DNA of 55,461 bases from positions 1 to 55,461 of the IMG/VR virus record IMGVR_UViG_3300031653_000002, one strand, 5' to 3'. Position 1 is the stretch's first letter, and every line of letters begins with the position of its first letter. Made by a program: the position numbers and the translations under genes. A model generated the notes under the pieces. It was given only the letters and a program-made list of their open reading frames with translations. It was not told the DNA's origin and ran no database searches. The stretch is from a virus. This document shows positions 7,378-48,713 of the stretch, piece after piece.

Positions 7378-7819
7378 AATTCCGGTTAGTTTGAGTCCAC
7401 ATATAGTAAATGGTAAGCCGAGGGGGTACTATGTGTTGGCAGAACGATTATTTGCCAAAAACAAAAATCCTCATTTAGTGCGGAACCAATTTGTGGGCGT
7501 TGCAAAGTCCTTGGTGATTTCCGTAAGCCATAACTCCACATGGGATACACTATTGGAGATGAGTATTAGTATTCCCCATCTTCCGAGTGCTCCGCAACGT
7601 GCTAACAGGGTATACTGGTTGGATAAGGCTAAGTTATATCCAATCAATATGGGATTTCGTGCGTATGTACCGGGGTCGGTATTGAAACCAGAACCGGATG
7701 CGGAAAAAATAGAAACTATGGGGGAATTCAAACGATTCCAAATGGGGACAACGGATTTGTTTTATCTGGAAATCCCTATCATAACATTAGATATTCTTTT
7801 GGGAAAGGAAAAACTATAA
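7361..7819 (+). CDS. Hypothetical protein (152 aa)
   Basis: The ATG at 7361 follows GAGGAAAATAG inside the end of the previous gene. The product looks like a globular beta-rich protein without cysteines, membrane segments or known motif. It lies beside nucleotide-pool enzymes. Confidence 0.65.
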   Translation: MFNPIRIPVSLSPHIVNGKPRGYYVLAERLFAKNKNPHLVRNQFVGVAKSLVISVSHNSTWDTLLEMSISIPHLPSAPQRANRVYWLDKAKLYPINMGFRAYVPGSVLKPEPDAEKIETMGEFKRFQMGTTDLFYLEIPIITLDILLGKEKL

Positions 7820-8487
7820 TGAAAAGACCAAGAAAGTTAAGGTTCAAAAGGGGGGAAGAAGTTAGAATCTGTAAAGAAACTGACTTTGTTGGACCTAAGT
7901 GGAAAGATAATCCATCTATCGATGATCTTATAACAAATACGAAACTTATAAATGGAGGGTATGACTATTGGATAAGAGGGAGAGCTTTTCGAGATACTGA
8001 ACTCGAACCAGTGACAGAATCCTCCGCGAGCGAAAAGGATACGAACCCGAAAGACGCTATCGGAATCAAGAAAGTGCCGTTGTGGTTTATTCCTACGTTG
8101 CCTTTATGTGAAGTTGGGTTGGCATTTATGGAAGGCGGAAGAAAATATGGGGCTTTTAATTGGAGGGTTTCCGGTGTCCGAGCGTCCGTGTATTATGATG
8201 CAATTATGCGACACATGAACGCATGGAAAGAGGGACAAGATATAGACCCGGACAGTGGCATACACCATATATCCAAGGCCATTGCTTGCTTAATGGTTAT
8301 TCGGGATAGTATTGAGATGGGGAATTGGGAGGATGATAGGCCGGTCAAATATCCGGACGGGTTATCCATTTCTATACTGAATGAGAAAGCAGCCGGTATA
8401 ATTGAGAGGTATCCCGATTGTAAGAAACCTTTTACCCAAAATAATACATCTATAGACAGGACGAAACCTGTTCCGGGAGGTTATTAA
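7819..8487 (+). CDS. dATP/dGTP diphosphohydrolase-type protein (DUF5664 / MazZ-like)
   Basis: The central part shows the DUF5664 signature: NPKDAIGIKKVPLWFIP near residue 76, GGRKYGAFNWR near 107 and YYDAIMRHMNAWKEGQD followed by SGIHHISKA. This family, annotated as a dATP/dGTP diphosphohydrolase N-terminal domain, belongs to the all-alpha NTP pyrophosphatases and includes MazZ of phages with 2-aminoadenine DNA. An extra N-terminal region of about 70 residues resembles a small beta barrel. It starts one base inside the upstream stop. The HD phosphohydrolase two genes later makes a nucleotide-pool pair. Confidence 0.8.
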   Translation: MKRPRKLRFKRGEEVRICKETDFVGPKWKDNPSIDDLITNTKLINGGYDYWIRGRAFRDTELEPVTESSASEKDTNPKDAIGIKKVPLWFIPTLPLCEVGLAFMEGGRKYGAFNWRVSGVRASVYYDAIMRHMNAWKEGQDIDPDSGIHHISKAIACLMVIRDSIEMGNWEDDRPVKYPDGLSISILNEKAAGIIERYPDCKKPFTQNNTSIDRTKPVPGGY

Positions 8488-8760: not shown

Positions 8761-9331
8761 TATAGTGACATACACCGGGAAGGCATTTAATATTTTCAAG
8801 CCCGACCCGAAGCTAATCTGCATCGAGGATATTGCCCATGCGTTGTCGAATATATGCAGGTATAATGGCCATACCAGAAACTTCTATAGCGTGGCGGAAC
8901 ATTGTGTCCGGGCATCATACCTAACAGTTGGGAAGCCGTTGATTAACCTACTGCATGACTCTGCGGAGGCTTACGTAGGAGATATGGTTTCCCCACACAA
9001 AAGGAATATGTTCTACTTTAATCCTTATCCTGTCAAAAATCCGATTGGGTTGACTCTTTTTGCAGAAACAGAAATGAGAATACTGGATATAATAGGGGTA
9101 GCATTGGGAGTTGATAATCTCTTTGAAAGGACAGAGCACCAAGATGTCCACAAGGCAGATATGATAATGTTTGTTACGGAAATTAGGGATTTGATGCCTG
9201 AATATATTGCTTTTGAACCTTGGGACGGAGGAATTATCGCGGATGCCAAGCGTATAGAGGGATGGGAACCTAAATATGCGGAACACGAATATTTACGAAG
9301 ATATAAGGAATTAAGCCATGAGCCTAAGTAA
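8750..9331 (+). CDS. HD-domain phosphohydrolase (YfbR/DatZ-like)
   Basis: The 193 aa protein has the HD metal site: SVAEHCVRA (His51), NLLHDSAEAYVGD (His69, Asp70, Glu73) and HKAD (Asp137). This arrangement is that of nucleotidases such as YfbR and of the phage dATP triphosphohydrolase DatZ. With the DUF5664 protein at 7819 it would reshape the dATP/dGTP pool. No PurZ gene is present, so a 2-aminoadenine genome is not implied. AAGGAAAG precedes the ATG. Confidence 0.82.
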   Translation: MKADIVTYTGKAFNIFKPDPKLICIEDIAHALSNICRYNGHTRNFYSVAEHCVRASYLTVGKPLINLLHDSAEAYVGDMVSPHKRNMFYFNPYPVKNPIGLTLFAETEMRILDIIGVALGVDNLFERTEHQDVHKADMIMFVTEIRDLMPEYIAFEPWDGGIIADAKRIEGWEPKYAEHEYLRRYKELSHEPK

Positions 9332-10226
9332 TGAACTAAAACATCAGATTTGTACTGGTTTACGTGCGGGATTAAGGCACAAAAAGATAGCTAAATTATC
9401 GGGATGCAATATAAGTACCGTGCGGCATTTATCATCGATACGTCCTACCAGGGTGTTACTCCTTTCCGACTCCCATTGCGGCAGTAATGTGGGCTTGACT
9501 CCCCCCGCATATCAGTACAGCTATATTGCTACGCCCCAATCCGAAGACCATAGGATCAGAAATAAGTGGTCTAAGTTACAAGAAGAATGTTGGAGTTGGT
9601 ACATAGCAACCTTGGAGCTTCTAAAACCTATTGATAAATGCTTCATACTGGGGGATATGATAGACGGGGATGGAAGTCGTTCCGGGGGGACTGAGCTTAT
9701 CGTTACGGATAGGAATGTACAGGTATCTATGGCTCTCGAATGTATACAACAGGTAGAAGCGGATTATTATTGCATGGTTTTCGGCACCCCGTATCATAAC
9801 GGCCAAGCCGAAGACTTCGAGATGAATATAGCAGAGAGGCTTGATTGCAAAATAGGTGGGCATGAGTGGGAAACCGTCAACGGTTGTATATTCGACTTGA
9901 AGCATAAGCAGGGTAACTGTATTAATCCCGCCACGTCCCTTTATAATGAGATACGCGATAGTAGAGAATGGTCATCTCTTGGGGAACAGCCCAGACCAGA
10001 CATTATAGTTAGAGCACATACCCATAGATATTGCAAATTTGAGATGGAGGAGATTACGGCATTATCTCTACCGGCCACCCAAGCCTACGGCACGAAGTAT
10101 GGCTCCAGACAATGCTCAAGAAAAGTCCAATTTGGACTTGTGGCTGTTGACGTATGGCCGGATGGATACGCGGTGCCGCTTGTACATATCGCAAAATTAA
10201 ATTCGCACAAAACCAAAACTAACTAA
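9318..10226 (+). CDS. Calcineurin-like metallophosphoesterase with N-terminal HTH
   Basis: Residues 1-40 look like a helix-turn-helix (GLRHKKIAKLSGCNISTVRHL). The rest has the metallophosphoesterase motifs LLLSDSHCGS (Asp51, His53), ILGDMIDGDG (Asp113), GTPYHNG in place of GNHD near 158 and RAHTHRY near 236. The family acts on nucleic-acid or nucleotide phosphoesters. The substituted GNHD-like motif keeps the His but loses the Asn. It is the last gene before the promoter at 10235. Confidence 0.83.
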   Translation: MSLSNELKHQICTGLRAGLRHKKIAKLSGCNISTVRHLSSIRPTRVLLLSDSHCGSNVGLTPPAYQYSYIATPQSEDHRIRNKWSKLQEECWSWYIATLELLKPIDKCFILGDMIDGDGSRSGGTELIVTDRNVQVSMALECIQQVEADYYCMVFGTPYHNGQAEDFEMNIAERLDCKIGGHEWETVNGCIFDLKHKQGNCINPATSLYNEIRDSREWSSLGEQPRPDIIVRAHTHRYCKFEMEEITALSLPATQAYGTKYGSRQCSRKVQFGLVAVDVWPDGYAVPLVHIAKLNSHKTKTN

Positions 10227-10663: not shown

Positions 10664-10674
10664 GGAAAGGGAAG

Positions 10675-11553
10675 ATGATGAATTTTTCAATAGTACGTTA
10701 TCTGCCAGAAAAATATAATATTCAAGCTATCCCCGTTGACTCCCCGATATTCCTACACAGGGATGGGACTATACATACCCCTACAACCTGGACATTGGCC
10801 GATGGGGCTTGGAAGACAAGAAGGGAAGCACAGGAATTTCTCGACGAATGGCTACCCCAATCCGAGTGGCTAAGCCGTTCAGCTATTGGGAACGCTGCTA
10901 AAGAATCCGAAAAGGACGCCCTGTGGTATTCAATTCTGCATTGGAGGCAGATTATTATAAAAGGAATCGATGAATACAGGAAGGGCACAGCGGCAGGTAA
11001 AGTTGGGACATATAATAAATATTGTGCTATTTGTTTAAGATGTTGCCATAAGCATATAATATGTCCACTAAGAGGAAACATCTGCGGGGGAAGATGTATT
11101 GGTGAATGGGCCAACGCAAGGCGGGGTTTGACCTATGGGAGTCTTGATGGGGCTATCGGGCTTCACAATAAAATGGTTAAAATATATAACGAAAAGTATG
11201 AGGATAAGATTATGGAAGAAACAAAAATCGACGATGTAATAGTGGTTGACGGTGTAGGATATGATAAGGAAACAGTCAAGGCTGCAATGAAAGCCTATGA
11301 AGAACCTCCGCAGGTGTCGGATGCCGATGTTCCTTTCGATCCCTTGGATGTCGTAGATAATGGCATGGGGCTGAGGGTAATACTTTTTTCCGGAGATAAG
11401 TACCACGCAGTAGATTTGAAAGACGGGATTAGTGCGGCGGATTCCGAGGATGGACGATTCAAAGGCGTGGGGTATAAGAAAATCGGAACCCTTAGAGGCG
11501 GAAGTTTCCATTATGAGGACAACGTATCTTTCATAAGAAGGGTACAGTTATAG
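10675..11553 (+). CDS. Hypothetical protein with a central zinc cluster (292 aa)
   Basis: The N-terminal part is a compact domain with WYSILHWRQII near residue 84. The centre holds CAICLRCCHKHIICP and GNICGGRC, six to seven cysteines that could bind one or two metal ions. The C-terminal third, after an acidic linker, looks like a separate beta domain. I cannot assign a function. Downstream lies a copy of the iterated motif serving as a ribosome site. Confidence 0.68.
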   Translation: MMNFSIVRYLPEKYNIQAIPVDSPIFLHRDGTIHTPTTWTLADGAWKTRREAQEFLDEWLPQSEWLSRSAIGNAAKESEKDALWYSILHWRQIIIKGIDEYRKGTAAGKVGTYNKYCAICLRCCHKHIICPLRGNICGGRCIGEWANARRGLTYGSLDGAIGLHNKMVKIYNEKYEDKIMEETKIDDVIVVDGVGYDKETVKAAMKAYEEPPQVSDADVPFDPLDVVDNGMGLRVILFSGDKYHAVDLKDGISAADSEDGRFKGVGYKKIGTLRGGSFHYEDNVSFIRRVQL

Positions 11554-11571
11554 AAACCTTGCGGAGGAAAT

Positions 11572-11688
11572 ATGATGAGGACTAACTACAATATTGATCC
11601 CGAATGTGAGGAATTGGACGAGCTTGATGAATCATTTGAACTTGAACGGGATACCGATGAGTACGAACCCATCGATTGGGACGAATAG
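11572..11688 (+). CDS. Small acidic protein (38 aa)
   Basis: The ATG follows TTGCGGAGGAAAT, where the genome-wide motif itself supplies GGAGG. About half of the residues are Asp or Glu and there is a single Cys. Highly acidic small phage proteins sometimes mimic DNA or bind host DNA-binding proteins, but this is only an analogy. Confidence 0.55.
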   Translation: MMRTNYNIDPECEELDELDESFELERDTDEYEPIDWDE

Positions 11689-11749
11689 GTTATGTATATA
11701 CATTGTACTGATTGTAATGATTATACTGCTTAAATCTTTTCCCTTCACA

Positions 11750-11794
11750 CCTCCGCAGGGTATATCGACTTATTCTGCGGAGGCTTCCCTTTTT
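11750..11794 (+). terminator. Intrinsic terminator built from two inverted copies of the iterated motif
   Basis: CCTCCGCAG (11750-11758) and CTGCGGAGG (11775-11783) form a 9-bp stem with a 16-base loop, followed by CTTCCCTTTTT. Using an iterated motif pair as a terminator stem recalls the pairing of DNA-uptake sequences in some bacteria. Confidence 0.75.
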
Positions 11795-11817
11795 ATCTAT
11801 GGGGTAGAATTTTTTAC

Positions 11818-11846
11818 TTGACTTCGGGATGGGATTTTGGTATAAT
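11818..11846 (+). promoter_or_regulatory. Sigma-70 promoter
   Basis: TTGACT, 17-base spacer, TATAAT at 11841-11846, directly after the motif-pair terminator and upstream of the gene at 11897. Confidence 0.85.
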
Positions 11847-11896
11847 CGGGGGAATGAGAGAAAAGTTTTTTGACAATTAATTTGAGAGGATTGAAG

Positions 11897-12280
11897 ATGT
11901 GTTTAGAAACCGTATATCGCGGAAACGAAAAGCGTGAGGCGAAGAAAGAATTACCGGATGTTATTGTGGGCTATAAAGTTATTGATAGGCATACGAATAA
12001 AACAGAGTATACTGATATAGATATAAAAGAAGGAATTAATTGTTTCGCGTCTAATAGCTTAGCCAGAGGAGAGGATAGGTATATCGGTGGGAGTCATGTT
12101 TTTCTGAATGAGATGGATGCAACAAGGTGGATATGCGACAATAGCCGACTCAAGGTAATAAAAGTTTATGTTGCAAAGAAGGACATAAATTCGATTGGGC
12201 GGCAGGGTGAGTTTTGGAGTCGTGGATATACAATCACGGTTAAGAAGTTCACAGTTAAAAGTCTAAGGGGGATAGAATGA
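11897..12280 (+). CDS. Hypothetical protein (127 aa)
   Basis: The ATG at 11897 follows GAGAGGATTGAAG; nine upstream in-frame codons are not needed. The protein begins MCLETVYRGNEK and has a mixed alpha/beta body. Cys2 is conspicuous, but no other amidotransferase motif is present, so that function is not proposed. It is the last gene of normal composition, together with the next one, before the repeat region and the A+T-rich cassette. Confidence 0.68.
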   Translation: MCLETVYRGNEKREAKKELPDVIVGYKVIDRHTNKTEYTDIDIKEGINCFASNSLARGEDRYIGGSHVFLNEMDATRWICDNSRLKVIKVYVAKKDINSIGRQGEFWSRGYTITVKKFTVKSLRGIE

Positions 12281-12438
12281 AAAGGCGGATATTGCAGGGA
12301 TTAATGTTGCCGGTGTGGATATTTATTTTTACAGCTATTGGGATCGTGGCTGCGGTAGAATATGCCATTGATGGGGATTGCAGTAGTGCCAAGGAAGAAG
12401 CCCGGAATCTCTTTCACAAAATCAAATCGGGTGCGTAA
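12277..12438 (+). CDS. Single-pass membrane protein (53 aa)
   Basis: The ATGA overlap with the previous stop and a hydrophobic stretch LPVWIFIFTAIGIVAAV support a small membrane protein with a charged C-terminus. Function is unknown. Confidence 0.6.
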   Translation: MKRRILQGLMLPVWIFIFTAIGIVAAVEYAIDGDCSSAKEEARNLFHKIKSGA

Positions 12439-12483
12439 TTTTGTCAATGTGCCCAAGGGTTTGTTATGGGACTATGGAAATAC

Positions 12484-12574
12484 GTCCGATAACATGGGGC
12501 GATAGCCAGGCAGTCCGATAATGTTGCAGGTGTTATAGGACGTTGGGATGCTGGGATGTGGAAAGTCCGATAAC
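12484..12574. repeat. GTCCGATAAY repeat array, left side
   Basis: Exact direct copies lie at 12484, 12513 and 12565, with weaker relatives at 12602 (TATCGGGTA, reverse) and 12815 (GTCCGAT). The same 10-mer recurs on the far side of the cassette at 18286-18533. The stretch 12439-12849 has no gene; besides this array it holds the promoter at 12682. Confidence 0.82.
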
Positions 12575-12681
12575 TCAATCCCCCCTCGAATAGGATTTGA
12601 ATATCGGGTAATCATATTTTTTTCAGTTTTGATTATTATATCATATTAAGGGCGGAATGTAAAGAAATTTTTATTTTTTTC

Positions 12682-12709
12682 TTGCATTTAATTTTTTTTG
12701 TGTTATAAT
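12682..12709 (+). promoter_or_regulatory. Promoter of the cassette
   Basis: TTGCAT at 12682-12687, 16-base spacer rich in T, TATAAT at 12704-12709. It stands at the left edge of the cassette and could drive the genes to the terminator at 15634. Confidence 0.72.
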
Positions 12710-12849
12710 TTGTATAGTTTGGGCAAGCCCCTATGTTTGAGTATTTTTTTGGAGGGCGTCAAAATGACATACTAATGAAAAATTGTAATCGGGCATTGAA
12801 TATATATGTTTAGTGTCCGATTATGGTTTTTTGTTTAGGGGATATTAAA

Positions 12850-13026
12850 ATGAATTACACAATAACATTAGGGGATGTCAAAGTGGATTACACAATAACA
12901 TACAATTCAGACAATAGCATAACAATTAGCACAATACATAATGGCGTTCGACTTCATAAGCAGTATTATGGCTATACAGAGAAGCAAGCCGAAAAACAGT
13001 TTTATATATGGATTGCGTCACAATAA
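12850..13026 (+). CDS. Small hypothetical protein (58 aa)
   Basis: The ATG at 12850 follows TTAGGGGATATTAAA. The product is a short beta-rich protein with two similar strands at its start (YTITLGDVKVDYTITYN). No cysteines or motif are present. It is the first gene of the cassette. Confidence 0.55.
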   Translation: MNYTITLGDVKVDYTITYNSDNSITISTIHNGVRLHKQYYGYTEKQAEKQFYIWIASQ

Positions 13027-13046
13027 TTTTTGTTTAAGGGGTTAAA

Positions 13047-13118
13047 ATGCTATTCGATAATATATCAAATAAAGCAATGGTGCTATTAATCGTATTATCT
13101 TATATGGTTTTGTGTTAG
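13047..13118 (+). CDS. Very small membrane peptide (23 aa)
   Basis: TTTAAGGGGTTAAA precedes the ATG at the same spacing as at neighbouring genes. The product ends in a hydrophobic stretch (VLLIVLSYMVLC). The ribosome site is the main support. Confidence 0.4.
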   Translation: MLFDNISNKAMVLLIVLSYMVLC

Positions 13119-13129
13119 GGGGGTTTATA

Positions 13130-13393
13130 ATGATTTTAAGACAAACATTTAATGAGCCGATTAGTGGTTTTTGGGATGGTGGGGCAAAACGTGTTTTTGA
13201 CTGGTCAATCGACGGTACGCCACAACAAGACAGTAAAGGCAAATTTGTAAAAGTTGGTAGCTGGGCAGCCAATCACTGGTTTCATGTATCGTTGGGCAAA
13301 ACAGATAAACAAACATTGTCTTATGCTAAAACACGTTTGCAAACACTGGCGGATAAAGCTTGTAAAAAATGTATCTTTGAATTTATAGATTAG
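13130..13393 (+). CDS. Hypothetical protein (87 aa)
   Basis: TTAGGGGGGTTTATA precedes the ATG at 13130; six earlier in-frame codons overlap that site. The protein has a Trp/Gly-rich N-terminal half and a Lys-rich helical end with CKKC. I do not recognise it. Confidence 0.6.
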   Translation: MILRQTFNEPISGFWDGGAKRVFDWSIDGTPQQDSKGKFVKVGSWAANHWFHVSLGKTDKQTLSYAKTRLQTLADKACKKCIFEFID

Positions 13394-13400
13394 ATTTGAT

Positions 13401-13526
13401 ATGAAAACGCCAAAACGCAAGTATAAATACGAAACCTGGCTGGAATATCCAAAGGCAAGGAAAGTTAAAAAAGAGGATAAATTTGTTAATGAACAAGAAA
13501 AAAGAAATAAGAAATTTGATTTTTAA
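13401..13526 (+). CDS. Small basic protein (41 aa)
   Basis: The frame is Lys/Arg-rich with many charged residues and no motif. It lacks a clear ribosome site and probably relies on coupling to the gene ending at 13393. Confidence 0.4.
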   Translation: MKTPKRKYKYETWLEYPKARKVKKEDKFVNEQEKRNKKFDF

Positions 13527-13532
13527 GGGGGT
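13506..13532 (+). repeat. 27-base translation-leader repeat, copy 1
   Basis: The segment ending in TTTGATTTTTAAGGGGGT is repeated with one mismatch at 15420-15446. Each copy lies just upstream of a start codon (13538 and 15453) and contains the ribosome site. Confidence 0.75.
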
Positions 13533-13537
13533 TTAAT

Positions 13538-14689
13538 GTGGATAATGGGGATCAACAATTAGTATGTTATAATTGTGAAAGCGAAATAGACGGCTGCGAT
13601 TATCAAGAAATAGACAACGAGATATACTGCCAGAGCTGTTACGATGAACTGTTTTGTTGTTGCGATAATTGCAATGAAACAGTATCGATCGACAATACAC
13701 ACTGTATTAATGATGCATGTATTTGTGATGATTGTTTCGATAATAACTATTTTTGTTGCGATGATTGCAGGGAATATAATCATAACGATAGTGCTATTAA
13801 TGCAGCAAACGGGGACACCATTTGTGAAGGATGTTACGGGGAAAATTATTTTACTTGTGAAGGATGTTATGAAGTATATCATGTGGATTGCTCTTGTGAT
13901 GGGTATTGTAATTGTTGTTACAATCAAAACAATAGCGGATGTTTGCACAATTACACGTATAAACCCGATCCAGTTTTTTACGGTAATGAAAAGGATAATT
14001 TATATTTTGGTATTGAACTGGAAATAGAATCACAAAGCAATGATATTGACGATATTGTTGAAAATATGAATGAATATATGTATGCAAAAGAGGATAGCAG
14101 TCTTGACAATGGATTTGAGATTGTATCACACCCTGCAACCTGGGATTGGATCAATAGCAATAAAAATTTGTGGAATGATATTTTAAGGCTTAAAGACGGA
14201 GGATTTAGGAGTTATAATACCGACACTTGTGGTATGCACGTTCATTTGAGTAAAGAAGCATTTTCATCCTTACATCTGTATAAGTTTTTGAAAATGTTTT
14301 ATGAAAATCAAGAGTTTATATTGACAATAAGCAGACGTAGAAAACATAACCTGGATAGATATGCCAGTCTTGAAACAGATGAAAGTATTGTATATAAAGC
14401 AACAAAAAAGTGTAATGGCCATACCAAACGATATACCGCAGTAAACCTTGAAAATAGCGAAACGATAGAAGTAAGGATATTTAGAGGCACATTGTCTGAA
14501 AACGGGTTTTATAGAAATATTGAGTTTTGCAAATCTTTATTTGAATTTACAAAAGAGGCAAGTCTTAAAGATATTACTGTATCTAAATATTGTGATTATG
14601 TAATGGATAACGAAAATACATATCCGAATTTAGCGACGTTCCTAATTGATAAGGAACTAATATCAACATTATTTAGCAGGGGACAATAA
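13538..14689 (+). CDS. Putative amidoligase with N-terminal LIM-like zinc modules
   Basis: GTG start at 13538, five bases after TAAGGGGG; the overlapping ATG at 13536 opens only eight codons. Residues 10-135 contain repeated CxxC...CxxCY units (about four treble-clef, LIM-like modules). Residues 155-383 match amidoligase-type enzymes of the GCS/glutamine-synthetase superfamily: YFGIELEIES, SSLDNGFEIVSHP, TCGMHVHLS and IEVRIFRG. Such enzymes form ATP-dependent amide bonds on a carboxylate. The adjacent class II amidotransferase, itself with a zinc module, would supply ammonia or act on the product. The substrate is unknown; the zinc modules may recruit it. Confidence 0.82.
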   Translation: MDNGDQQLVCYNCESEIDGCDYQEIDNEIYCQSCYDELFCCCDNCNETVSIDNTHCINDACICDDCFDNNYFCCDDCREYNHNDSAINAANGDTICEGCYGENYFTCEGCYEVYHVDCSCDGYCNCCYNQNNSGCLHNYTYKPDPVFYGNEKDNLYFGIELEIESQSNDIDDIVENMNEYMYAKEDSSLDNGFEIVSHPATWDWINSNKNLWNDILRLKDGGFRSYNTDTCGMHVHLSKEAFSSLHLYKFLKMFYENQEFILTISRRRKHNLDRYASLETDESIVYKATKKCNGHTKRYTAVNLENSETIEVRIFRGTLSENGFYRNIEFCKSLFEFTKEASLKDITVSKYCDYVMDNENTYPNLATFLIDKELISTLFSRGQ

Positions 14690-15418
14690 ATGTGTGTTAT
14701 AATCTATAAACCCAAAAAAGCGTATATAACACGTGAAACACTATCCGAATGTTGGGATGAAAATCCAGACGGCGGAGGTTTCATGTACTCAAAGAATAAT
14801 GTTTTACAAGTACACAAAGGGTTTATGAGTTTTAGAAAATTTTATAAACAATATAGAAAATGTGAAAATGATAATGATAGTAATTTTGTAATCCATTTTC
14901 GTATTGCAACAAGCGGATTGATAGATAGTAACAATTCACATCCGTTTTACGTCAATAAGAGTTTAGGTTTCGTTCACAATGGTATATTAAATTGCGTGGA
15001 TGTGCCCGAAAAAAGCAACAGATCCGATACTGCTATATTCAATGAAACAGTATTAAAAAAATTACCTAAAACTTTTTTGAAACAAAAAGCATATCATATT
15101 ATGCTGGAATCTATTGCCAGACAACAATGCTCTAAATTTGCATTTATGGATAATAAAGGGACTTGTTATATATTCAATGAATGTGCGGGTGTTTGGCAAG
15201 ACGGAATTTGGTTTAGTAATCAGAGGCATAAATGGGACTCGGTATTTCCGTCCAAAAAAACGGAGAAAACAACAACAGTTATTATTGAAAACGAAAAATG
15301 GATCGAATGTTATTGTTGCGGAGACTTTTACCCTGTTTCAGAATGTGTTGGTTTTGGCAATGATTTAATATGTTCGGTGTGTGCAAACGAATGTGAAAAG
15401 GATTACATTTTCAAATAG
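14690..15418 (+). CDS. Class II glutamine amidotransferase with C-terminal zinc module
   Basis: The product starts MCVIIYK, so Cys2 becomes the N-terminal nucleophile after Met removal. Further family motifs follow: NPDGGGFMY (25-33), HFRIATSG (69-76, with Arg71), SHPF, FVHNGIL (94-100) and RSDTAIF (111-117). After about residue 205 it carries a treble-clef-like zinc unit (CYCCGDF and CSVCANEC) similar to those on the amidoligase. It begins directly at the amidoligase stop, so the two are co-translated. Together they probably make an amide modification, target unknown. Confidence 0.88.
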   Translation: MCVIIYKPKKAYITRETLSECWDENPDGGGFMYSKNNVLQVHKGFMSFRKFYKQYRKCENDNDSNFVIHFRIATSGLIDSNNSHPFYVNKSLGFVHNGILNCVDVPEKSNRSDTAIFNETVLKKLPKTFLKQKAYHIMLESIARQQCSKFAFMDNKGTCYIFNECAGVWQDGIWFSNQRHKWDSVFPSKKTEKTTTVIIENEKWIECYCCGDFYPVSECVGFGNDLICSVCANECEKDYIFK

Positions 15419-15419
15419 G

Positions 15420-15446
15420 AATAAGAGATTTGATTTTTAAGGGGGT
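15420..15446 (+). repeat. 27-base translation-leader repeat, copy 2
   Basis: Copy of 13506-13532 with one mismatch, upstream of the start at 15453. It points to duplication of a ribosome-site module inside the cassette. Confidence 0.75.
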
Positions 15447-15452
15447 AGTAAA

Positions 15453-15614
15453 ATGAAAAGGTATAGTAAAGAATATGTAAATCAACTGGCTATAAAATAC
15501 TACGAGATGTTTATATCCTGTTTTGGATTACCGAACGCGTTGAAAATACATGCACAACTTGGACGGCTGTTAAGAGTGGAAAAAAATAGACGCAAGGAAT
15601 TAAAAGATAAATAG
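15453..15614 (+). CDS. Small basic helical protein (53 aa)
   Basis: TAAGGGGGTAGTAAA precedes the ATG. The product is mostly helical and positively charged at its end (VEKNRRKELKDK). Its first residues (MKRYS) echo the gene at 17133. It is followed by a terminator, so it ends the amidoligase transcript. Confidence 0.55.
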   Translation: MKRYSKEYVNQLAIKYYEMFISCFGLPNALKIHAQLGRLLRVEKNRRKELKDK

Positions 15615-15633
15615 ACACTATCCCTCCTCACTA

Positions 15634-15685
15634 ATGGGGATGCTTTGACCGGATGTCTGGTATCCCCATATTTTGATTATTTTTT
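15634..15685 (+). terminator. Intrinsic terminator inside the cassette
   Basis: ATGGGGAT (15634-15641) pairs with ATCCCCAT (15662-15669), followed by ATTTTGATTATTTTTT. The loop is 20 bases. Confidence 0.75.
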
Positions 15686-15698
15686 AAGGATTGATAAA

Positions 15699-15872
15699 AT
15701 GAAAAAATGTAAAACTGTAAAAGAGCAGGTGCAATGGATTAAAAGAGTTTTTAACCGGATAAGGGATAGTTGGAGTATAACATACAACTGGTCTTTTGAA
15801 AAAAGTAGAGCGTATTGTATAGTACTCATCGACAGATTGAATGTTCTCCAAGACATAATAAAGGATAGATAG
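15699..15872 (+). CDS. Small helical protein (57 aa)
   Basis: TAAGGATTGATAAA precedes the ATG at 15699. The product is amphipathic and basic, with no motif. An upstream in-frame ATG at 15645 lies in the terminator loop and is unlikely. Confidence 0.5.
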   Translation: MKKCKTVKEQVQWIKRVFNRIRDSWSITYNWSFEKSRAYCIVLIDRLNVLQDIIKDR

Positions 15873-15873
15873 A

Positions 15874-15996
15874 ATGATTGAACCGGATTATATAGACAAT
15901 TTGATATGTGTACTGAATGAACAAGTGGACGAAGGGTATTTGTCAAAAGAGGACGCCCTGGAAATATTGTCGGAGGTTAAAGAAAATGAAGGGTAA
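15874..15996 (+). CDS. Small acidic protein (40 aa)
   Basis: The start touches the previous stop (TAGAATG), and its end overlaps the next start by 11 bases. The product is acidic and probably two helices (KEDALEILSEVK). Function is unknown. Confidence 0.5.
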   Translation: MIEPDYIDNLICVLNEQVDEGYLSKEDALEILSEVKENEG

Positions 15997-16333
15997 ATAT
16001 ACTAACCGTTGTATGGAATGTCCCATGTCGGAAAAATGTAAGCAAAAAGAATATATGCGTCCAGATACAGAAGCAGTGCAGGGATATGTCGGCAGTGCCG
16101 ATTTATGGTGTAATGAGCATAAACCAAAAGATGCTGAAAATATGGGATATTATCCCGAAATGGATTCGCCCGCTCATTGTGCTGAATGTGGACGCCCTTT
16201 GCAATGTACCTTAACAGATTATGGCGTCGAATATGTCAAAGAAGCGTTGCAAAATGACGGCTGTTGTTGCGAATTATGGGCGACGTTGTTTGCTGCACAC
16301 TTGGAGGTAAAAGAAAATGATAGTAGTATTTAA
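15986..16333 (+). CDS. Zinc-binding hypothetical protein (115 aa)
   Basis: The ATG at 15986 follows CGGAGGTTAAAGAAA. The protein has CMECPMSEKC near residue 9, HCAECGRPLQC near 66 and a CCCEL triplet near 95. The first two look like zinc knuckles. The upstream in-frame extension from 15917 lies in another gene and is rejected. Confidence 0.6.
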   Translation: MKGKYTNRCMECPMSEKCKQKEYMRPDTEAVQGYVGSADLWCNEHKPKDAENMGYYPEMDSPAHCAECGRPLQCTLTDYGVEYVKEALQNDGCCCELWATLFAAHLEVKENDSSI

Positions 16334-16505
16334 GTCTACGTATAATGATAAAGATGAACATTGTTGGGAAATATTAGGATTATATACTAACATAGAAAAT
16401 ATGCCCAAGGATGTAAGGGATTACCCTAATATGTATAGGATTGAAACCCGACTGGTGGATATAGATTATGTTGACTTTAATATGGGAATTGTGAATAAAT
16501 TTTAG
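16317..16505 (+). CDS. Small hypothetical protein (62 aa)
   Basis: The ATG overlaps the previous gene by 17 bases after TTGGAGGTAAAAGAAA. The product is an alpha/beta mini-protein (IVVFKSTYND at its start) without motif. Confidence 0.5.
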   Translation: MIVVFKSTYNDKDEHCWEILGLYTNIENMPKDVRDYPNMYRIETRLVDIDYVDFNMGIVNKF

Positions 16506-16514
16506 AGGTGTATT

Positions 16515-16577
16515 ATGGCTGAATTTGGGATTGTTGTTGTAATCATAGGGATTATTTACTATTGGATATATAAATAG
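16515..16577 (+). CDS. Very small membrane peptide (20 aa)
   Basis: AGAGGTGTATT precedes the ATG. Almost the entire product is hydrophobic (FGIVVVIIGIIYYWIY). A candidate phage membrane peptide, supported by ribosome site and composition only. Confidence 0.4.
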   Translation: MAEFGIVVVIIGIIYYWIYK

Positions 16578-16603
16578 GGTTAAGAAATTGTGGAGGTGTA
16601 AAA

Positions 16604-16909
16604 ATGAAAGTAGAAAATATGAAAAGTCCGAAGACAGGGATGGACATACCTAATCAGTTTATTATTATAGAAGATGTTGAAGAACAATTAGGGCATGAAG
16701 CATATAAACATATATTCTATGCTGAATATTTTCAATCCTACAATTCTATAATAGTTAAGAGATATAAAGGTATAGTTTATCTTGACAAAACGTACTGGAA
16801 TTATTCAAGGACAACGTCAAAATATCGCAATATCTTTTTAGGCGAAACAACAAAGGAAACACAAGCAAAGATTAATAGCGGTGAATATGTATTGACAGAC
16901 TTGAATTAA
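16604..16909 (+). CDS. Hypothetical protein (101 aa)
   Basis: GTGGAGGTGTAAAA precedes the ATG. The product is Tyr-rich and mixed alpha/beta, ending in a helix with TTKETQAKINSGEY. No family is recognised. It is the largest gene in the right half of the cassette. Confidence 0.6.
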   Translation: MKVENMKSPKTGMDIPNQFIIIEDVEEQLGHEAYKHIFYAEYFQSYNSIIVKRYKGIVYLDKTYWNYSRTTSKYRNIFLGETTKETQAKINSGEYVLTDLN

Positions 16910-16925
16910 AGTTGCGGAGGGGATT

Positions 16926-17117
16926 ATGTATTTTAATATGGATCATAAAGAGGGCTTCGAGCAGGTATATCAATGTCAATGCAAAGCGGTATTTCCGGAA
17001 AGCAGAGTAGAAACCATAAAGACACGCTGTGGGGATAGAATTTTGCGATGCCCTGTTTGTGGTAGTCAAGAGATTAGGTGTATTGGGGATAATAGGGATG
17101 CAATACTTGAAAAATGA
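16926..17117 (+). CDS. Zinc-ribbon protein (63 aa)
   Basis: Paired knuckles QCQCKAVF and RCPVCGS make a typical rubredoxin-type zinc ribbon. The start follows GTTGCGGAGGGGATT, the only copy of the genome-wide motif in the cassette, placed exactly as a ribosome site. Confidence 0.6.
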   Translation: MYFNMDHKEGFEQVYQCQCKAVFPESRVETIKTRCGDRILRCPVCGSQEIRCIGDNRDAILEK

Positions 17118-17132
17118 ATTGGAGGTTATGAA

Positions 17133-17282
17133 ATGAAAAGGTATAGATTCGCAGTAACACCAAAAGGATGTAATATTGCACAGATAGTAAGTGTACAAGC
17201 AGAGGATAAGTATAAGGCGTTAAGGATGGTAAAAGTGATGTTCAGGGATGCTAAATTTATAGTGCCAGTAAAAGAGAAATGA
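17133..17282 (+). CDS. Small basic protein (49 aa)
   Basis: GGAGGTTATGAA precedes the ATG at 17133; the ATG at 17128 gives only two codons. The product is beta-alpha with many Lys residues. No motif is seen. Confidence 0.5.
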   Translation: MKRYRFAVTPKGCNIAQIVSVQAEDKYKALRMVKVMFRDAKFIVPVKEK

Positions 17283-17291
17283 GGTGAAAAA

Positions 17292-17576
17292 ATGACAGAT
17301 ACTAATAAGCAGACGGAATTACATTTTAGACCAACGGCGTCTGAATGTCAAGGGATAATTTATGCCGATAGCGGCAGGGCTATTGCTATTCTGTATGATA
17401 GGACGGACGGATATGGTGAATTGTTTGCCGCTGCACCGGAATTGTTAGCCATTTGTAAAGATGGGTTAAAGTTTCTTGATAGTTTGCCCGCTACGTCTAA
17501 CACGTTTCAATTAGAAAACAGGACGTATCGGCGGAAACAGCTTGAAAGTATTATTGATAGGGCTGAAAAGAAATAA
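17292..17576 (+). CDS. Phage hypothetical protein of the APELLA type (94 aa)
   Basis: The segment GELFAAAPELLAICKDGLKFL is typical of a widespread family of small phage proteins with unknown function. GAGGTGAAAAA precedes the ATG. The C-terminal half is helical and basic. Its presence shows that the cassette is itself of phage origin. Confidence 0.65.
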   Translation: MTDTNKQTELHFRPTASECQGIIYADSGRAIAILYDRTDGYGELFAAAPELLAICKDGLKFLDSLPATSNTFQLENRTYRRKQLESIIDRAEKK

Positions 17577-17585
17577 GGGGATAAA

Positions 17586-17849
17586 ATGAATACGAAACCG
17601 ATTGCCAGAGAAATAACAGAAGATGAATACGAGGAGTATCTTAACGAAGCGTGGGGAATTGTAGATGTTTGTGGATTACCATTCGACGCGGGAACTATTT
17701 TAATGGAACTTGATCCGACGGCTTTTAGATGCGGGCTGGCTGATTATGAAAGCGAGCTTGAACCGATAGAATGGGAATGCGGCGTTTGTGGAACTGTTTT
17801 CGATAACGAAAGTGAAGCCGACGACTGTTGTTGTGATGATAATGAATAA
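17586..17849 (+). CDS. Acidic zinc-binding protein (87 aa)
   Basis: AAGGGGATAAA precedes the ATG. The C-terminal part has CGVCGTVF and a DDCCCDD cluster. The rest is strongly acidic. This could be an interaction module similar to the other zinc proteins in the cassette. Confidence 0.55.
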   Translation: MNTKPIAREITEDEYEEYLNEAWGIVDVCGLPFDAGTILMELDPTAFRCGLADYESELEPIEWECGVCGTVFDNESEADDCCCDDNE

Positions 17850-17874
17850 AGGGTAGAATAAAAGAGGTGAAAAA

Positions 17875-18129
17875 ATGAGTAAAGAAATTCAACTTGTTAT
17901 TAAAAAAGAGGATATATCTAATATTCCAGACTCAAAACAAATTAAAAATATTATCATTACCAAGTTGGTGAACGGGTATATTTATGATCGCCCAAAAAAG
18001 GATAGATTTATCCGATGCACAAGTTTTAGATTGCCCGATCCTATAGTAGATAAATTAGAGGAAATAAGTAAAAGTAATAAAATAGGGATAAGCAAACTAA
18101 TCCGGCACATGATAGGATTTGATTATTAA
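17875..18129 (+). CDS. Ribbon-helix-helix-like protein (84 aa)
   Basis: The C-terminal half (CTSFRLPDPIVDKLEEIS, then KIGISKLIRHMI) has the strand-helix-helix pattern of RHH DNA-binding proteins such as CopG and Arc. Residues 1-40 may be a separate dimer or ligand arm. It is the last gene of the cassette and sits next to the repeat-rich region, so it is a candidate binder of those repeats. Confidence 0.65.
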   Translation: MSKEIQLVIKKEDISNIPDSKQIKNIIITKLVNGYIYDRPKKDRFIRCTSFRLPDPIVDKLEEISKSNKIGISKLIRHMIGFDY

Positions 18130-18285
18130 CACAGTAGAAAAAAAGAGGGGATAAAATGAGTATTGAAACCGCGGATTGATTACACGGTAGAAAAAAGGAT
18201 GATAGTGTTTCGTGCTCATAATTTTCAAATAACAAAATAAACCTCCCACAATTACCCGTCATGCCGACGATCTGTCGCCCAACAG

Positions 18286-18533
18286 GTTATCGGACTCCAC
18301 ATGGCGGGTCATTCCTTATCCGTCCCGCATTATTATCGGACGTCCAGTCCTAATTACCACGTGTCCAATCGCTAAACCCAAGCCATTATCGGACTTACCA
18401 TTGGATTTACCCCAATTTCCAAAACCAATTCCCAGTTATTATCGGGTATTACCGCGTCCGATAACCGTTTCGTCCCATATTCAATCCCATTCGCGTCGCC
18501 TATCCACGTCCGATAACGTCTGAGTCCGATAAT
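18286..18533. repeat. GTCCGATAAY repeat array, right side
   Basis: Reverse copies at 18286, 18332 and 18385, a reverse variant at 18438 (ATTATCGGGT), and forward copies at 18456, 18508 and 18524. With the left array this gives nine exact copies in the genome region. The change of orientation makes the array roughly symmetric around 18450. Confidence 0.85.
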
Positions 18534-18671: not shown

Positions 18672-18957
18672 GTGTCCTATGGTGCCATTTGGTGTCCTAT
18701 GAATGTCCCTTCCAAACGGACACCGTTTTCCCCATTTCCAGCCTAAAAACCCACAATATGAACCCCGTGTCCTATGTGTCCTATCACTTCTTTATTTCTA
18801 TTTCCTACAAAAAGTATATAGGGAAGGAAAAAGGGAAATCTCATAGGACACATAGGACACCGATTTTGAATACTACCCATTTTCCCGCTTATTAGCCCAA
18901 AAAAGCCCTTTTTACGCCCAACCCAAAAAAGGTCTCATAGGACACCACATAGGACAC
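18672..18957. repeat. GTGTCCTAT iterons, four forward and four reverse
   Basis: Forward 9-mers at 18672, 18692, 18767 and 18776; reverse copies (ATAGGACAC) at 18843, 18852, 18937 and 18949. The two halves mirror each other around an A/T-rich core with a purine/pyrimidine switch. Two pairs are in direct contact (18767/18776 and 18843/18852). Such arrays are typical binding sites of replication initiators. Confidence 0.88.
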
Positions 18958-18959
18958 CA

Positions 18960-20318
18960 CTATGGGAGATAATCTCTTGCCTCTGCCCCGGACTTAAATT
19001 TAAGCCCATTGTAAACATAATACCTACTATCCCTACCGCCCATTCTCCGCTTCGTCGCCTTCGGGAACTGTCTTGCTACTTCCTTCCCGAATGTCTTGCT
19101 TGACATCACCATATACCCGTTATCCCGCCCCCACTTTTTATAGGTATCATATACCGTCTTGGTCCTTACCCCAAAGTGGTACGATTCATCCCACTCATAG
19201 CTCTCCGCGAGAAACATAGCCGCAGGGTTCGATTCCTCCTTATACGCTTCCCACAGCTTCTGACTGGCATCGGCTATCACAAACCTGCGATTAGCTTTCA
19301 AATCCTTCAATCCCTCAATAGCCCAGTTCAATATCCCCGGCAACTCCTCAATAAGCTTATTATCCAAATAAGGATCAACAATACTCGTATCTACCCTATT
19401 AAAAGGCACAACTACCAATCTCCTCCACGTACCCATGCTCTTATCGGTAAAACTGGGGAAATCATTCGACAAAATCAACAGCTTCGCCGTAGCCTCCGCG
19501 GTGAATCCATGCCCCCACTTCCTCTCATAATCAACGCCATCCTTACCCGTCCAAGCCTTAATTATAGCCTCAACCTGCGGAGTCAATTCCTGCTCGGCAT
19601 CTCCGGCCACATTCAATTTCTTCCCATACGTCATATACAACGCAAATTTATCGACGAACCTCCGCAGGGGCACATCGCTACAATTCTCTTTTCCGAGCAT
19701 AGCCTTCATTACCCTGGCAAACGTACTCTTTCCCGTAGCGGCTTCTCCCTTGAGTAGCAGGAAAGACTCATACTCCTGCGTAGGAATCAACAGGTATCCC
19801 GCCCATTGCTGCAACGTCCGTCGCAACTGAGCATCCTCCATCGTAACCTCATCCACGAATTTCATCCACTTGGGACACTCTGCGGAGGGATCGTACCCAT
19901 AGGGCATTTTATTAAGGGCAAAGAAGTCCGGGGTATTCTTTTGTATTTTGGTCTCTCCATTATCTTCAAACGTCACAATCGATTTATTCGTTACAATCGA
20001 ATTCTGAGGCTCGTTGTTGTCCCTAAACCACGTATCCGGCAATCTCTCACTCACGACATTGGATAATGCCTTCAAATTAAGCATGACATTCTCTATCAGG
20101 CTGGTCGAGCACTCCACCGATAATCCCGCAATATATCTAACCAATAGGGCTTTAAGGTCATCTTTCCCCCTCTTTCGGAATATCCCATCATCCCAGAAGT
20201 AGAAATCCTCACGCCAATATATCATAGACCTCTTACGGTCGTCTCCCCAGTCTATATGTCCAATTTCCATATAGAAAGAGTATGCAATCTCCGCCGGACT
20301 TGGTTTCCTCTCAGCCAT
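18960..20318 (-). CDS. SF3 replicative helicase / primase C-terminal protein (D5/P4 type)
   Basis: The 452 aa product has the superfamily 3 motor: Walker A GEAATGKST (191-199), Walker B-like KLNVAGDAEQE (234-244), the sensor strand KLLILSNDFP (279-288) and an arginine finger GTWRRL (296-301). A D5-type N-terminal region precedes it and a winged-helix end follows. The ATG at 20318 has GAGGAAAGAACTA in front; the upstream TTG at 20342 is rejected. It is the only minus-strand gene and reads away from its own promoter at 20455-20482 toward the iterons at its 3' side. It should load at the origin and unwind DNA for the PolA enzyme. Confidence 0.9.
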   Translation of the reverse strand: MAERKPSPAEIAYSFYMEIGHIDWGDDRKRSMIYWREDFYFWDDGIFRKRGKDDLKALLVRYIAGLSVECSTSLIENVMLNLKALSNVVSERLPDTWFRDNNEPQNSIVTNKSIVTFEDNGETKIQKNTPDFFALNKMPYGYDPSAECPKWMKFVDEVTMEDAQLRRTLQQWAGYLLIPTQEYESFLLLKGEAATGKSTFARVMKAMLGKENCSDVPLRRFVDKFALYMTYGKKLNVAGDAEQELTPQVEAIIKAWTGKDGVDYERKWGHGFTAEATAKLLILSNDFPSFTDKSMGTWRRLVVVPFNRVDTSIVDPYLDNKLIEELPGILNWAIEGLKDLKANRRFVIADASQKLWEAYKEESNPAAMFLAESYEWDESYHFGVRTKTVYDTYKKWGRDNGYMVMSSKTFGKEVARQFPKATKRRMGGRDSRYYVYNGLKFKSGAEARDYLP

Positions 20319-20342
20319 TAGTTCTTTCCTCTTGTTCCGCAA

Positions 20343-21000: not shown

Positions 21001-21254
21001 TGAAAGAATTACCAAGTCATAAAGAATGTCAAGATGCTGTTGAAGCTGGTGAAGATACAGCCCTCCACAAATTCATCTACGACCAAGAACCAGCAGGTAG
21101 AGAAGACGAGGAAGAATTTAGAAAAGGACTGTTGGACGTTATAAACGAGGGGAGGAAAGCCACCTTAAAGTGGGTAAAAAGGGAAGCTATTAGTTTAGAT
21201 GAACGTGGGGATATAAGTAGGAAAATTATTGATAGAGAAATAGAAAAATTATGA
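21000..21254 (+). CDS. Acidic helical hypothetical protein (84 aa)
   Basis: Preceded by GGAAAGGAGAAGATA and overlapping the next gene by four bases. The product is charged and helical (HKECQDAVEAGEDTALHKF), with no known motif. Confidence 0.6.
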   Translation: MKELPSHKECQDAVEAGEDTALHKFIYDQEPAGREDEEEFRKGLLDVINEGRKATLKWVKREAISLDERGDISRKIIDREIEKL

Positions 21255-21673
21255 AAATGCCTAAGACAATCGACCTCGGATTCGGAGACGTCGTAGAGGT
21301 CTCCTATCTTGAGGAAATATTCAAAATATCGAGACGCACCGCCCTGAAATATCTACAAGCTCTACGGATAGAACCGTTATACGTTGGCAGTGACGTTTAC
21401 TTCTCCCTCAATACTTTCAAAAGAATTATGTTCGTACTGTCCAAACCCAATTCGCCAGGGTTCGTATTTCCGGGGAGCAACAAGAAAAACAGTCCGAGAT
21501 ACCGCAAGGCTCCGACATCAATCGTTCGAGTGACAGACGAGATTCTTGCAGAAGCCGCTAAACCGGAAATACTATCTGAGATGGCTGGATCATCGGGTAG
21601 AAATGACGCCATCCTAAAACAATTTGTGACTAAGCCAGTTGGTAGACCCCCTAAGAAGGAGGAGAAAGAATGA
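21251..21673 (+). CDS. Helix-turn-helix protein with AT-hook-like tail (140 aa)
   Basis: Residues 17-60 look like a winged helix (VSYLEEIFKISRRTALKYLQ followed by a short wing), as in excisionases or MerR-type proteins. The C-terminus ends with PVGRPPKKEEKE, an AT-hook-like minor-groove element. Position upstream of the terminase makes a packaging-initiation (small terminase-like) or late-regulator role possible. Confidence 0.6.
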   Translation: MKMPKTIDLGFGDVVEVSYLEEIFKISRRTALKYLQALRIEPLYVGSDVYFSLNTFKRIMFVLSKPNSPGFVFPGSNKKNSPRYRKAPTSIVRVTDEILAEAAKPEILSEMAGSSGRNDAILKQFVTKPVGRPPKKEEKE

Positions 21674-22041: not shown

Positions 22042-22758
22042 ATGAATGAGATAGAAAAGACTTCCCCAGAGGATGCCCTCAATATGATTCTATCGTTCAA
22101 CGACGCCAACTTGGTGTCGATGTTGTTCGAGAAGTTGGGATGGTCTATCAACGAGGAGATTAAGGAAACCCTTACTGTTGCTCGTCAAAACGTCAACTTA
22201 GGAGCTAAGATGACGGCACTCAAACACCTTCGAGTTCTGTTAAAGGAGGCTGCGGAGGCATCTGGTTACTTAGCGAAGGTGTCCCAAACTTTTCCGGGGA
22301 CTGGGGGAGAACAAACGACATTTAGTGCGAGGAGAATTTCCTCTGTACTTAATCCACAAAAAGTAAAAAAAATAGAATCCAATCAAGGAGACTCAAATGG
22401 CAAAAGAGAACAAGAACCAAAACAAGAAACCGGAACAGCCCAGCATCGAGGAAGCTCTGGGAAACCGGGCGGGAGCACCCCCCCACATGACGAATCCAGA
22501 CCTGCTGAAACAGGCGAGAGACGACGCGAGAGTGGACAAGGTTCAAACGAATCTGGAAGCCCCTCATACAAAGACAGCTTCGAGTTTAATCCCTCCGCAG
22601 ATACAACCGATAACGGACGACGCTCGGACGAAAATCAAGACGGAGACCGCGAAGGAACTGGAACCGACAATCCCTGCGTCAACAGAAAAAAACCCACAAG
22701 AGGTGATGGCCTCTACCCCGGAGTCTCCGGCAAAAGTAGTAATTCCGAAGACGAATAA
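22042..22758 (+). CDS. Terminase-linked hypothetical protein with an unusual overlapping tail
   Basis: Residues 1-110 form a plausible helical domain (DALNMILSFNDANLVSMLFEKL onward) that might be a small terminase-like protein. After an eight-A run at 22365-22372 the frame continues for about 125 disordered residues wholly overlapping the next gene in another frame. One A fewer would create TAG right at the domain end and just before the ribosome site of the next gene. The tail may thus be a real dual-coding region, a slippage product or a homopolymer error. I trust the first 110 residues only. Confidence 0.55.
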   Translation: MNEIEKTSPEDALNMILSFNDANLVSMLFEKLGWSINEEIKETLTVARQNVNLGAKMTALKHLRVLLKEAAEASGYLAKVSQTFPGTGGEQTTFSARRISSVLNPQKVKKIESNQGDSNGKREQEPKQETGTAQHRGSSGKPGGSTPPHDESRPAETGERRRESGQGSNESGSPSYKDSFEFNPSADTTDNGRRSDENQDGDREGTGTDNPCVNRKKPTRGDGLYPGVSGKSSNSEDE

Positions 22759-23143
22759 TTTCACATCTGTAGTATGGACAGACGATAAAGAATCGTTGGG
22801 ATTAGTGCATGAAGACCCGGACGACATTAACCTGCGGAGGTTGAAAGACTATTTGAACGGAGAAGAATTTACTCCTTCATGGGTTATGATGCACTTGGCA
22901 CAGATAACATCTAATCCTAAGATTACTCCGAGGATTTCGTTATGGGACAAGCCTAACGAGATAGACGTTGTGGTTAAGGGGGTGTATAATGTGATGATGT
23001 CACCGGGATTTGTTGATAATACATGGCCTTATCTGAAAGTGGTTATGGGGTCATCGCGGGATAATGTCGTGTGGTGTGCCAATGTTTTGACCACCATAGC
23101 TTTGTTCGAGACAATTAAAATTTTACCCTTTATGGAAGGATAG
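22397..23143 (+). CDS. Hypothetical protein upstream of terminase (248 aa)
   Basis: TCAAGGAGACTCAA before the ATG is a strong ribosome site. Residues 1-115 are disordered and rich in Lys, Glu, Pro and Thr. Residues 118-248 are folded (FTSVVWTDDKESLG, DNVVWCANVLTTIALFET). The folded part could bind a packaging or replication partner through the tail. No family is recognised. Confidence 0.68.
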   Translation: MAKENKNQNKKPEQPSIEEALGNRAGAPPHMTNPDLLKQARDDARVDKVQTNLEAPHTKTASSLIPPQIQPITDDARTKIKTETAKELEPTIPASTEKNPQEVMASTPESPAKVVIPKTNNFTSVVWTDDKESLGLVHEDPDDINLRRLKDYLNGEEFTPSWVMMHLAQITSNPKITPRISLWDKPNEIDVVVKGVYNVMMSPGFVDNTWPYLKVVMGSSRDNVVWCANVLTTIALFETIKILPFMEG

Positions 23144-23146
23144 AAA

Positions 23147-23296
23147 ATGATTAGAGCACTAAGAGAAGCGGCGGATTTTTATGAGAGCATGTGGAATAAT
23201 TGTTCTAATATATTCAGCAAATTAGTTGGGTTCTTTATTGGTATTTTGCTCTTTCCTGTATTATTAGTCTGTATTTTGATAAGCCATTTATATTAA
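23147..23296 (+). CDS. Small membrane protein (49 aa)
   Basis: A hydrophobic helix covers residues 26-48 (GFFIGILLFPVLLVCILI). GGAAGGATAGAAA precedes the ATG. Function is unknown. Confidence 0.55.
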   Translation: MIRALREAADFYESMWNNCSNIFSKLVGFFIGILLFPVLLVCILISHLY

Positions 23297-23338
23297 AAAG
23301 AAGAAATAGAAATGAACCATGGAGCTTGAAAAGGCGGA

Positions 23339-42574: not shown

Positions 42575-42578
42575 TAAG

Positions 42579-48701: not shown

Positions 48702-48713
48702 TAAGGAGTATAC

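Follow-up and report, generated by a model that had tools for sequence, protein, structure and literature searches.

Integrative mobile elements exploiting Xer (IMEX), namely CTXphi, VGJphi and TLCphi, are filamentous or cryptic phages that depend on the host XerCD recombinases and integrate at one or two att sites; in the excerpt of PMC5357621 drawn upon here, attP of TLCphi agrees with dif1 on the XerC side and diverges from it on the XerD side. The pdif (dif) modules of Acinetobacter plasmids, as described in excerpts of the literature on them, have accessory genes bracketed by Xer-type sequences, in this case full XerC/XerD sites. A dif site with an XerC arm of the GTCCNATAA type reads in full GTCCGATAA-N6-TTATGTNAAC, and the actinobacterial XerC arm reads GCCGATAAT. 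Alphaproteobacterial phages carry binding sites for a host regulator, CtrA (excerpt of PMC9437464). The window analysed here is the whole IMG/VR virus record IMGVR_UViG_3300031653_000002 (55,461 nucleotides), and the element in question is a block lying between two arrays of the decamer GTCCGATAAY, which is very probably a standing slot for a variable operon beside the replication origin. Like pdif modules, the locus has accessory genes bracketed by Xer-type sequences, but these are arrayed half-sites only and not pairs of full XerC/XerD sites. Unlike the IMEX phages, the phages with such arrays are tailed and show no sign of integration, and the CtrA sites (same excerpt) belong to a different protein and are regulator sites rather than origin-side arrays.

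The window has exactly nine copies of GTCCGATAAY, and every one falls within the two arrays that the sequence-only reading of this DNA had noted on either side of the block, 12484-12574 and 18286-18533. With up to one mismatch there are 18 matches against 6.5 expected, a number reached in none of 100 shuffles. The three exact copies of array 1 are all on the + strand; if the fifth base is left free (GTCCNATAAY), sites at 12463(-) and 12532(-) are added, bringing the array sites to eleven, along with two isolated sites at 22939 and 25282. The locus is laid out as follows:

12463..12574, both strands: array 1, GTCCNATAAY at 12463(-), 12484(+), 12513(+), 12532(-) and 12565(+)
12682..12709, +: promoter-like TTGCAT-N16-TATAAT, found with our own pattern and not among the consensus-scan matches
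12781..12828, +: terminator-like leader hairpin followed by a T run, containing the one-mismatch site GTCCGATTAT
12823..18129, +: variable operon of about 13 small genes
18186..18222, +: GGTAGAAAAAA...GTGCTCATAAT element at the operon end (both parts in the relative G039, GTGCTCATAAT in G043)
18286..18533: array 2, six exact sites, three on the - strand and then three on the + strand, partly alignable in relatives
18672..18957: origin-like iterons ATAGGACAC, eight copies around an AT-rich stretch at about 18804-18840
18960..20342, -: superfamily 3 (SF3) helicase of the D5/DUF5906 type with a C-terminal RFX-like domain, start more likely near 20315

A single gene spans both ends of the record (in relatives, 53450-55461 and 3-605 correspond to one gene), and the genome is thus circular or that of a circularly permuted phage. 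Colinear relatives were found via terminase and portal alignments: G024, G039, G040, the fragments G043 and G045, and, at a greater distance, G041, G042, G044, G046 and G047. G027 and G024 represent one phage (99.95-100% identity over 12.3 and 4.4 kb), and the part missing from G024 is supplied by G027. A search of INPHARED for near-identical phages gave nothing useful, nor did Rfam and tRNA scans, and the helicase and the amidoligase (see below) were unproductive as single queries against IMG/VR. A lineage-specific protein of 880 amino acids has no match in INPHARED.

The frame common to the colinear relatives consists of array 1, a promoter, an operon of small genes, array 2, origin-like iterons and a minus-strand helicase. 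It is seen in G039 (array 1 at 42680-42746, array 2 at 46616-46885, D5-type helicase at 47650-49032(-)) and in G024/G027 (in window orientation in G027: array 1 at 19179-19240, array 2 at 22276-22317, AAA_25/RepA helicase at 22602-23666(-)). It is less clear in G040, which has array 2 at 36894-37049 and a weak array 1 made up of one exact GTCCNATAAY at 31695 and near matches. Of the four genomes with both sides visible, the window included, three show the two-array frame clearly and the fourth weakly. A promoter-like sequence follows array 1 at the same place in the window, G039, G040 and G027, and such a sequence lies about 90-200 bp downstream of an array in every relative showing both.

The genes within this frame are a different matter. 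Only 1 of the 13 cassette genes has a homologue in G039, versus 41 of 59 genes elsewhere (Fisher 5e-5), and the figures for G040 are 1 of 13 versus 34 of 59 (Fisher 1.4e-3). The contrast stays when genes of 50-140 amino acids alone are compared (1/11 versus 13/26 in G039; 1/11 versus 9/26 in G040), and a looser threshold with shorter open reading frames (ORFs) brought out a few small cassette genes in common, in scrambled order. What stays constant across relatives is the position, the frame, the promoter-like sequence and the side of the helicase, while the gene content turns over, which indicates a standing slot for a variable operon and not an insertion into one array. The turnover reaches beyond the space between the arrays, as homologues among ten relative records are lacking for all four genes at 10670-12460, to the left of array 1.

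The arrays are also distinct from the origin itself. According to the sequence-only reading, deletion of the block would join them into one origin-like region next to the helicase gene; iterons of ATAGGACAC and an AT-rich stretch do adjoin the helicase, lying between it and array 2, but they are separate from the GTCCNATAAY arrays. By reading, comparable but different repeats occupy the iteron place in G039, G040, G043, L170 and G027. In G024/G027 the helicase is of the RepA/AAA_25 type instead of D5 (L067 991-2055 in G024) and the repeats are new (GGAAGGTCGCAAA), and yet the GTCCNATAAY arrays stay. Since the arrays survive a change of iterons and the replacement of the helicase by an unrelated one, we reject the idea that they are iterons of the adjacent helicase.

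The motif is found well beyond this lineage. In IMG/VR, triples of GTCCGATAAY (gaps of at most 30) were found in 43 contigs belonging to several unrelated phage groups, as against none for the complement (that is, reversed) motif used as a control, and the arrays are irregular or two-stranded in 36 of the 43. With the window included, the 44 loci fall into up to 17 gene-sharing groups, an upper bound given that the loci are partial; four groups besides the window's own have at least three members. Same-strand site spacings peak at 14-16, 23-27 and 33-36; with a best period of 9.2-9.7, not 10.5, helical phasing of the sites is suggestive only. Such triples are also present in 15 bacterial contigs, by appearance mostly in coding or tandem repeats, and these were used only as phylum handles. 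The motif resembles gamma-delta res sites, but its derivation from a serine-resolvase half-site was tried and rejected, PF02796 being found in only 7 of the 39 records searched and not in the window.

One of six spellings of the motif occurs in 54 of 5.39 million papers; the 40 listed were, judged by title, mostly unrelated contexts or primers, and the one useful hit was a table of dif sites. In this Table 1 of PMC2731167, the portion of that paper used here, GTCCNATAA is the XerC arm of 5 of 7 delta-proteobacterial dif sites. Among bacterial genomes, GTCCNATAA-N6-TTATGNNAAC is present in a single copy in each of 23 of 198 Desulfobacterota and in 10 of 81 Bacillota, and in none of 200 Pseudomonadota or 79 Planctomycetota; GTCCNATAA with a looser XerD arm was found in 0 of the 12 genomes behind the bacterial motif-triple loci. 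The fifth base is as free in these host arms as in the arrays (15 G, 4 C, 3 T and 1 A in the Desulfobacterota sites). In one other group of array phages a dif-like core, GTCCNATAA-N6-TTATGT, occurs once each in L014, L029, L030, L032 and L050. Among 562 sites TTATGT follows at an offset of six and is absent from all other offsets between 0 and 19, the four instances at +20 being the same hexamers recounted from a site 14 bases upstream, and the base after GTCCNATAA in the five cores (T, G, T, T, T) is as in host dif. With a complete dif-like core enclosed in it, the array of this group probably serves in the Xer recombination of phage genomes (dimer resolution or similar). Xer-like recombinases of about 295 amino acids, scoring below the curated XerC/XerD cut-offs, are encoded by 4 of the 36 array contigs searched. 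The carriers (L159, L160, L161 and L162) are large phages of 71-161 kb, and two of the four proteins are identical.

The identity of GTCCNATAA with the XerC arm of some Desulfobacterota and Bacillota, taken together with the five dif-like cores, favours binding of the host XerC type, and on these sequence comparisons we lean somewhat towards XerC or an Xer-like protein as the binder of the arrays. As a whole, the best explanation, which we put forward tentatively, is a permanent accessory-operon slot with arrays that are XerC half-sites in a binding-only role. The block would be the present filling of this slot beside the origin, with the two GTCCNATAAY arrays as its frame. The arrays would be half-sites for host XerC (the left arm of dif) or a protein of the same specificity, which may load on both of them and so assemble a nucleoprotein complex on that side of the genome where the origin lies. 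In the window lineage, which has no complete core, the arrays would act by binding alone, drawing the operon into a bridge or loop and controlling its promoter, and the cargo would be swapped probably by ordinary recombination at the conserved borders. More tentatively still, this can be extended into a general scenario, in which unrelated tailed phages repeatedly adopted arrays of host XerC half-sites as an origin-side landing platform, with the recombinase serving an architectural or licensing role without integration; a few of them would keep a complete dif-like core, and in the window lineage the platform would frame a fast-evolving operon.

Several observations weigh against a role for XerC. 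The arm equals those found in Desulfobacterota and Bacillota dif sites, but the next base differs: the array sites have C there in 76% of cases and T in 19%, versus C in 0 of 34 host dif sites, and the specificity of the array binder is thus not exactly that of dif. No XerD arm accompanies the half-sites of the window lineage, GTCCNATAA-N6-TTATG being absent from the window, G024 and G039-G047; the six-base centre and XerD arm that define dif are lacking there, and the five other array phages show only the TTATGT part of that arm. These five are moreover related to one another, and L010, the sixth member of their group, has no dif-like core. No tyrosine recombinase was found in the window or the relatives searched. 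The beta/gamma-type XerC arm TTCGCATAA was recovered from 7 contigs, mostly as short repeats with at most 1-2 irregularly spaced; in the lack of clear TTCGCATAA arrays, arrays of XerC arms are not a general phenomenon. Myxococcus phage Mx8, whose host has a GTCCNATAA dif arm, has no site, and the 880-amino-acid protein of the window phage has no match in 395 Desulfobacterota genomes, a null that is uninformative without a positive.

The most probable rival, though we regard it as rather unlikely, has the arrays bound by a phage-encoded regulator or replication protein that shares the taste of XerC for its arm, in which case they would be operators or accessory iterons for the promoter and the origin. 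The distance of about 90-200 bp from array to promoter-like sequence fits such operators, as do the specificity at position 10, which is unlike dif, and the missing XerD arm in the window. However, the candidate binders, namely a conserved helix-turn-helix (HTH) protein (21251-21673), the helicase and the ORF at 20394, are near the arrays in the window lineage only (the loci being partial), and each lineage would accordingly need a binder of its own with the same taste; the five dif-like cores would also be left unexplained.

It is improbable that the arrays mediate cargo exchange. As pdif-like Xer exchange sites between which whole operons are swapped or inverted, an equally improbable proposal, they would account for the bracketing of a variable operon and for the situation in L170 (helicase about 60% identical). 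Here, a promoter-like sequence and small ORFs adjoin array 2 and the operon (7200-8168) is directed away from the helicase, opposite to its direction in the window, G039, G040, G043 and G027. Yet L170 is a single 8.2-kb contig with its far end outside view, neither array has a 28-bp XerC/XerD site, variability continues to the left of array 1, and the site orientation in array 1 is unlike between the window and G039.

Far less probable is the proposal of the sequence-only reading that this lineage acquired a mobile cassette within a single continuous origin array. Part of the description behind it is borne out. The block is indeed of different composition in the window, with a G+C content (GC) of 34.2% as against 42.5% for the rest, and 9 of 10 1-kb windows within it fall under the lowest window outside (37.0%); it is AT-rich also in G039 (33.3 versus 38.9%) and G040 (39.6 versus 44.0%). 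It is likewise devoid of what is most likely the genome-wide motif that had been reported, CCTCCGCAG/CTGCGGAGG, which has 38 copies on both strands of the window (e.g., 413, 11305 and 22250) versus 2.6 expected, and 0 in the block (P about 0.017 under uniform placement). This motif is frequent too in G024 (43), G039 (23), G040 (57) and G043 (17); it holds a Shine-Dalgarno-like core, yet is present on both strands. The absence of a recombinase inside the block also held up, none being detected with Pfam or PHROGs in the scanned cassette proteins (some small ORFs in one library at most). A distinct ribosome-site style (TAAGGGG) is a weaker matter: AAGGGG precedes 3 of 13 cassette genes versus 1 of 62 others, but GGAGG-type sites precede 5 of the 13. 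The 8-base inverted pair at the edges exists (12605-12612 and 18251-18258) but does not rise above chance, the flanks sharing 3 inverted 8-mers versus 0.67 expected, as do 6.6% of random place pairs, and on reading G039, G040 and L170 no conservation of the inverted pair was seen. Other cargo does lie at the same site in G039, G040 and G024/G027, as an insertion would predict, but no relative with a continuous array, that is, an empty site with joined arrays, was found. The two arrays around an operon are the common state of the lineage and turnover also affects the genes left of array 1, and the phrase "inserted between two arrays of the same repeat" is thus misleading. Furthermore, the terminal inverted repeats and recombinase of a transposon or integrase cassette are lacking: there is no integrase or tyrosine recombinase (PF00589) in the whole record, no transposase among the scanned cassette proteins and no significant terminal repeat. 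In G027 the cassette has the GC of its genome (53.8% for both). A single mobile insertion is accordingly rejected, being largely refuted by G039 and G027.

A decoy function, in which the arrays titrate XerC of the host and thereby block either the resolution of its chromosome or competing Xer-dependent elements, would suit the abundance of half-sites that have no XerD arm (in L045, up to 48 GTCCNATAAY within 12.7 kb) but is highly improbable, given that the order, the roughly 10-base rhythm and the conserved place of the arrays exceed the needs of a sponge and that the window holds eleven array sites only.

Turning to the cargo and its neighbourhood, the following genes could be characterized:

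12277..12438, +: small membrane-protein-like ORF directly 5' of array 1
13538..14689, +: Amidoligase_2 family protein with a Cys-rich N-terminus (PF12224, E 6e-11; phrog_16683, E 6e-37)
14690..15418, +: class II glutamine-amidotransferase-like protein (phrog_25883, E 7e-17; PF13230 under cut-off)
17875..18129, +: ribbon-helix-helix (CopG/Arc-like) protein (PF12651 barely above cut-off; phrog_7325)

The predicted Amidoligase_2 membership is supported by a score of 43.1 bits versus the Pfam cut-off of 22. Genes of these two families also lie near each other, in the order seen here, in Mycobacterium phage LittleLaf and others; these are unrelated phages, and the identity is about 28-32%. The cassette of G039 has instead a radical SAM protein (L144 4575-5186) with a partial match to the PADLOC viperin profile (E 6e-11, residues 3-81 only), that of G040 a DNA methyltransferase, and that of G027 an ORF (L199; reverse strand of G027, 19708-20136) made of alanine-rich repeats (AYADAKAA...). 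The leader hairpin of the window operon, with its T run and the one-mismatch GTCCGATTAT, could be an attenuator. The ORF before array 1 in G039 (42425-42655) resembles by eye that at 12277..12438, but phmmer detects no homology. Further to the left, the protein encoded at 9318-10226 appears by eye to combine an HTH-looking N-terminus with a metallophosphoesterase; it has a homologue in G039, and an unrelated-looking phosphoesterase is found in its place in G040.

Among the matches listed, our text searches of the literature on XerC, half-sites, arrays and phage turned up no report of phage XerC half-site arrays. If XerC binds the arrays, the Xer system would have exploiters of a second kind alongside the integrating elements, and the motif would provide a sequence handle on uncultured phages of hosts with the GTCCNATAA dif arm. 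Regardless of XerC, the presence of a short motif in many unrelated phages, kept through changes of helicase, iterons and cargo, points to a common partner. The slot itself is a place to seek accessory phage genes, such as the amidoligase/amidotransferase pair, the viperin-like radical SAM protein and the methyltransferase.

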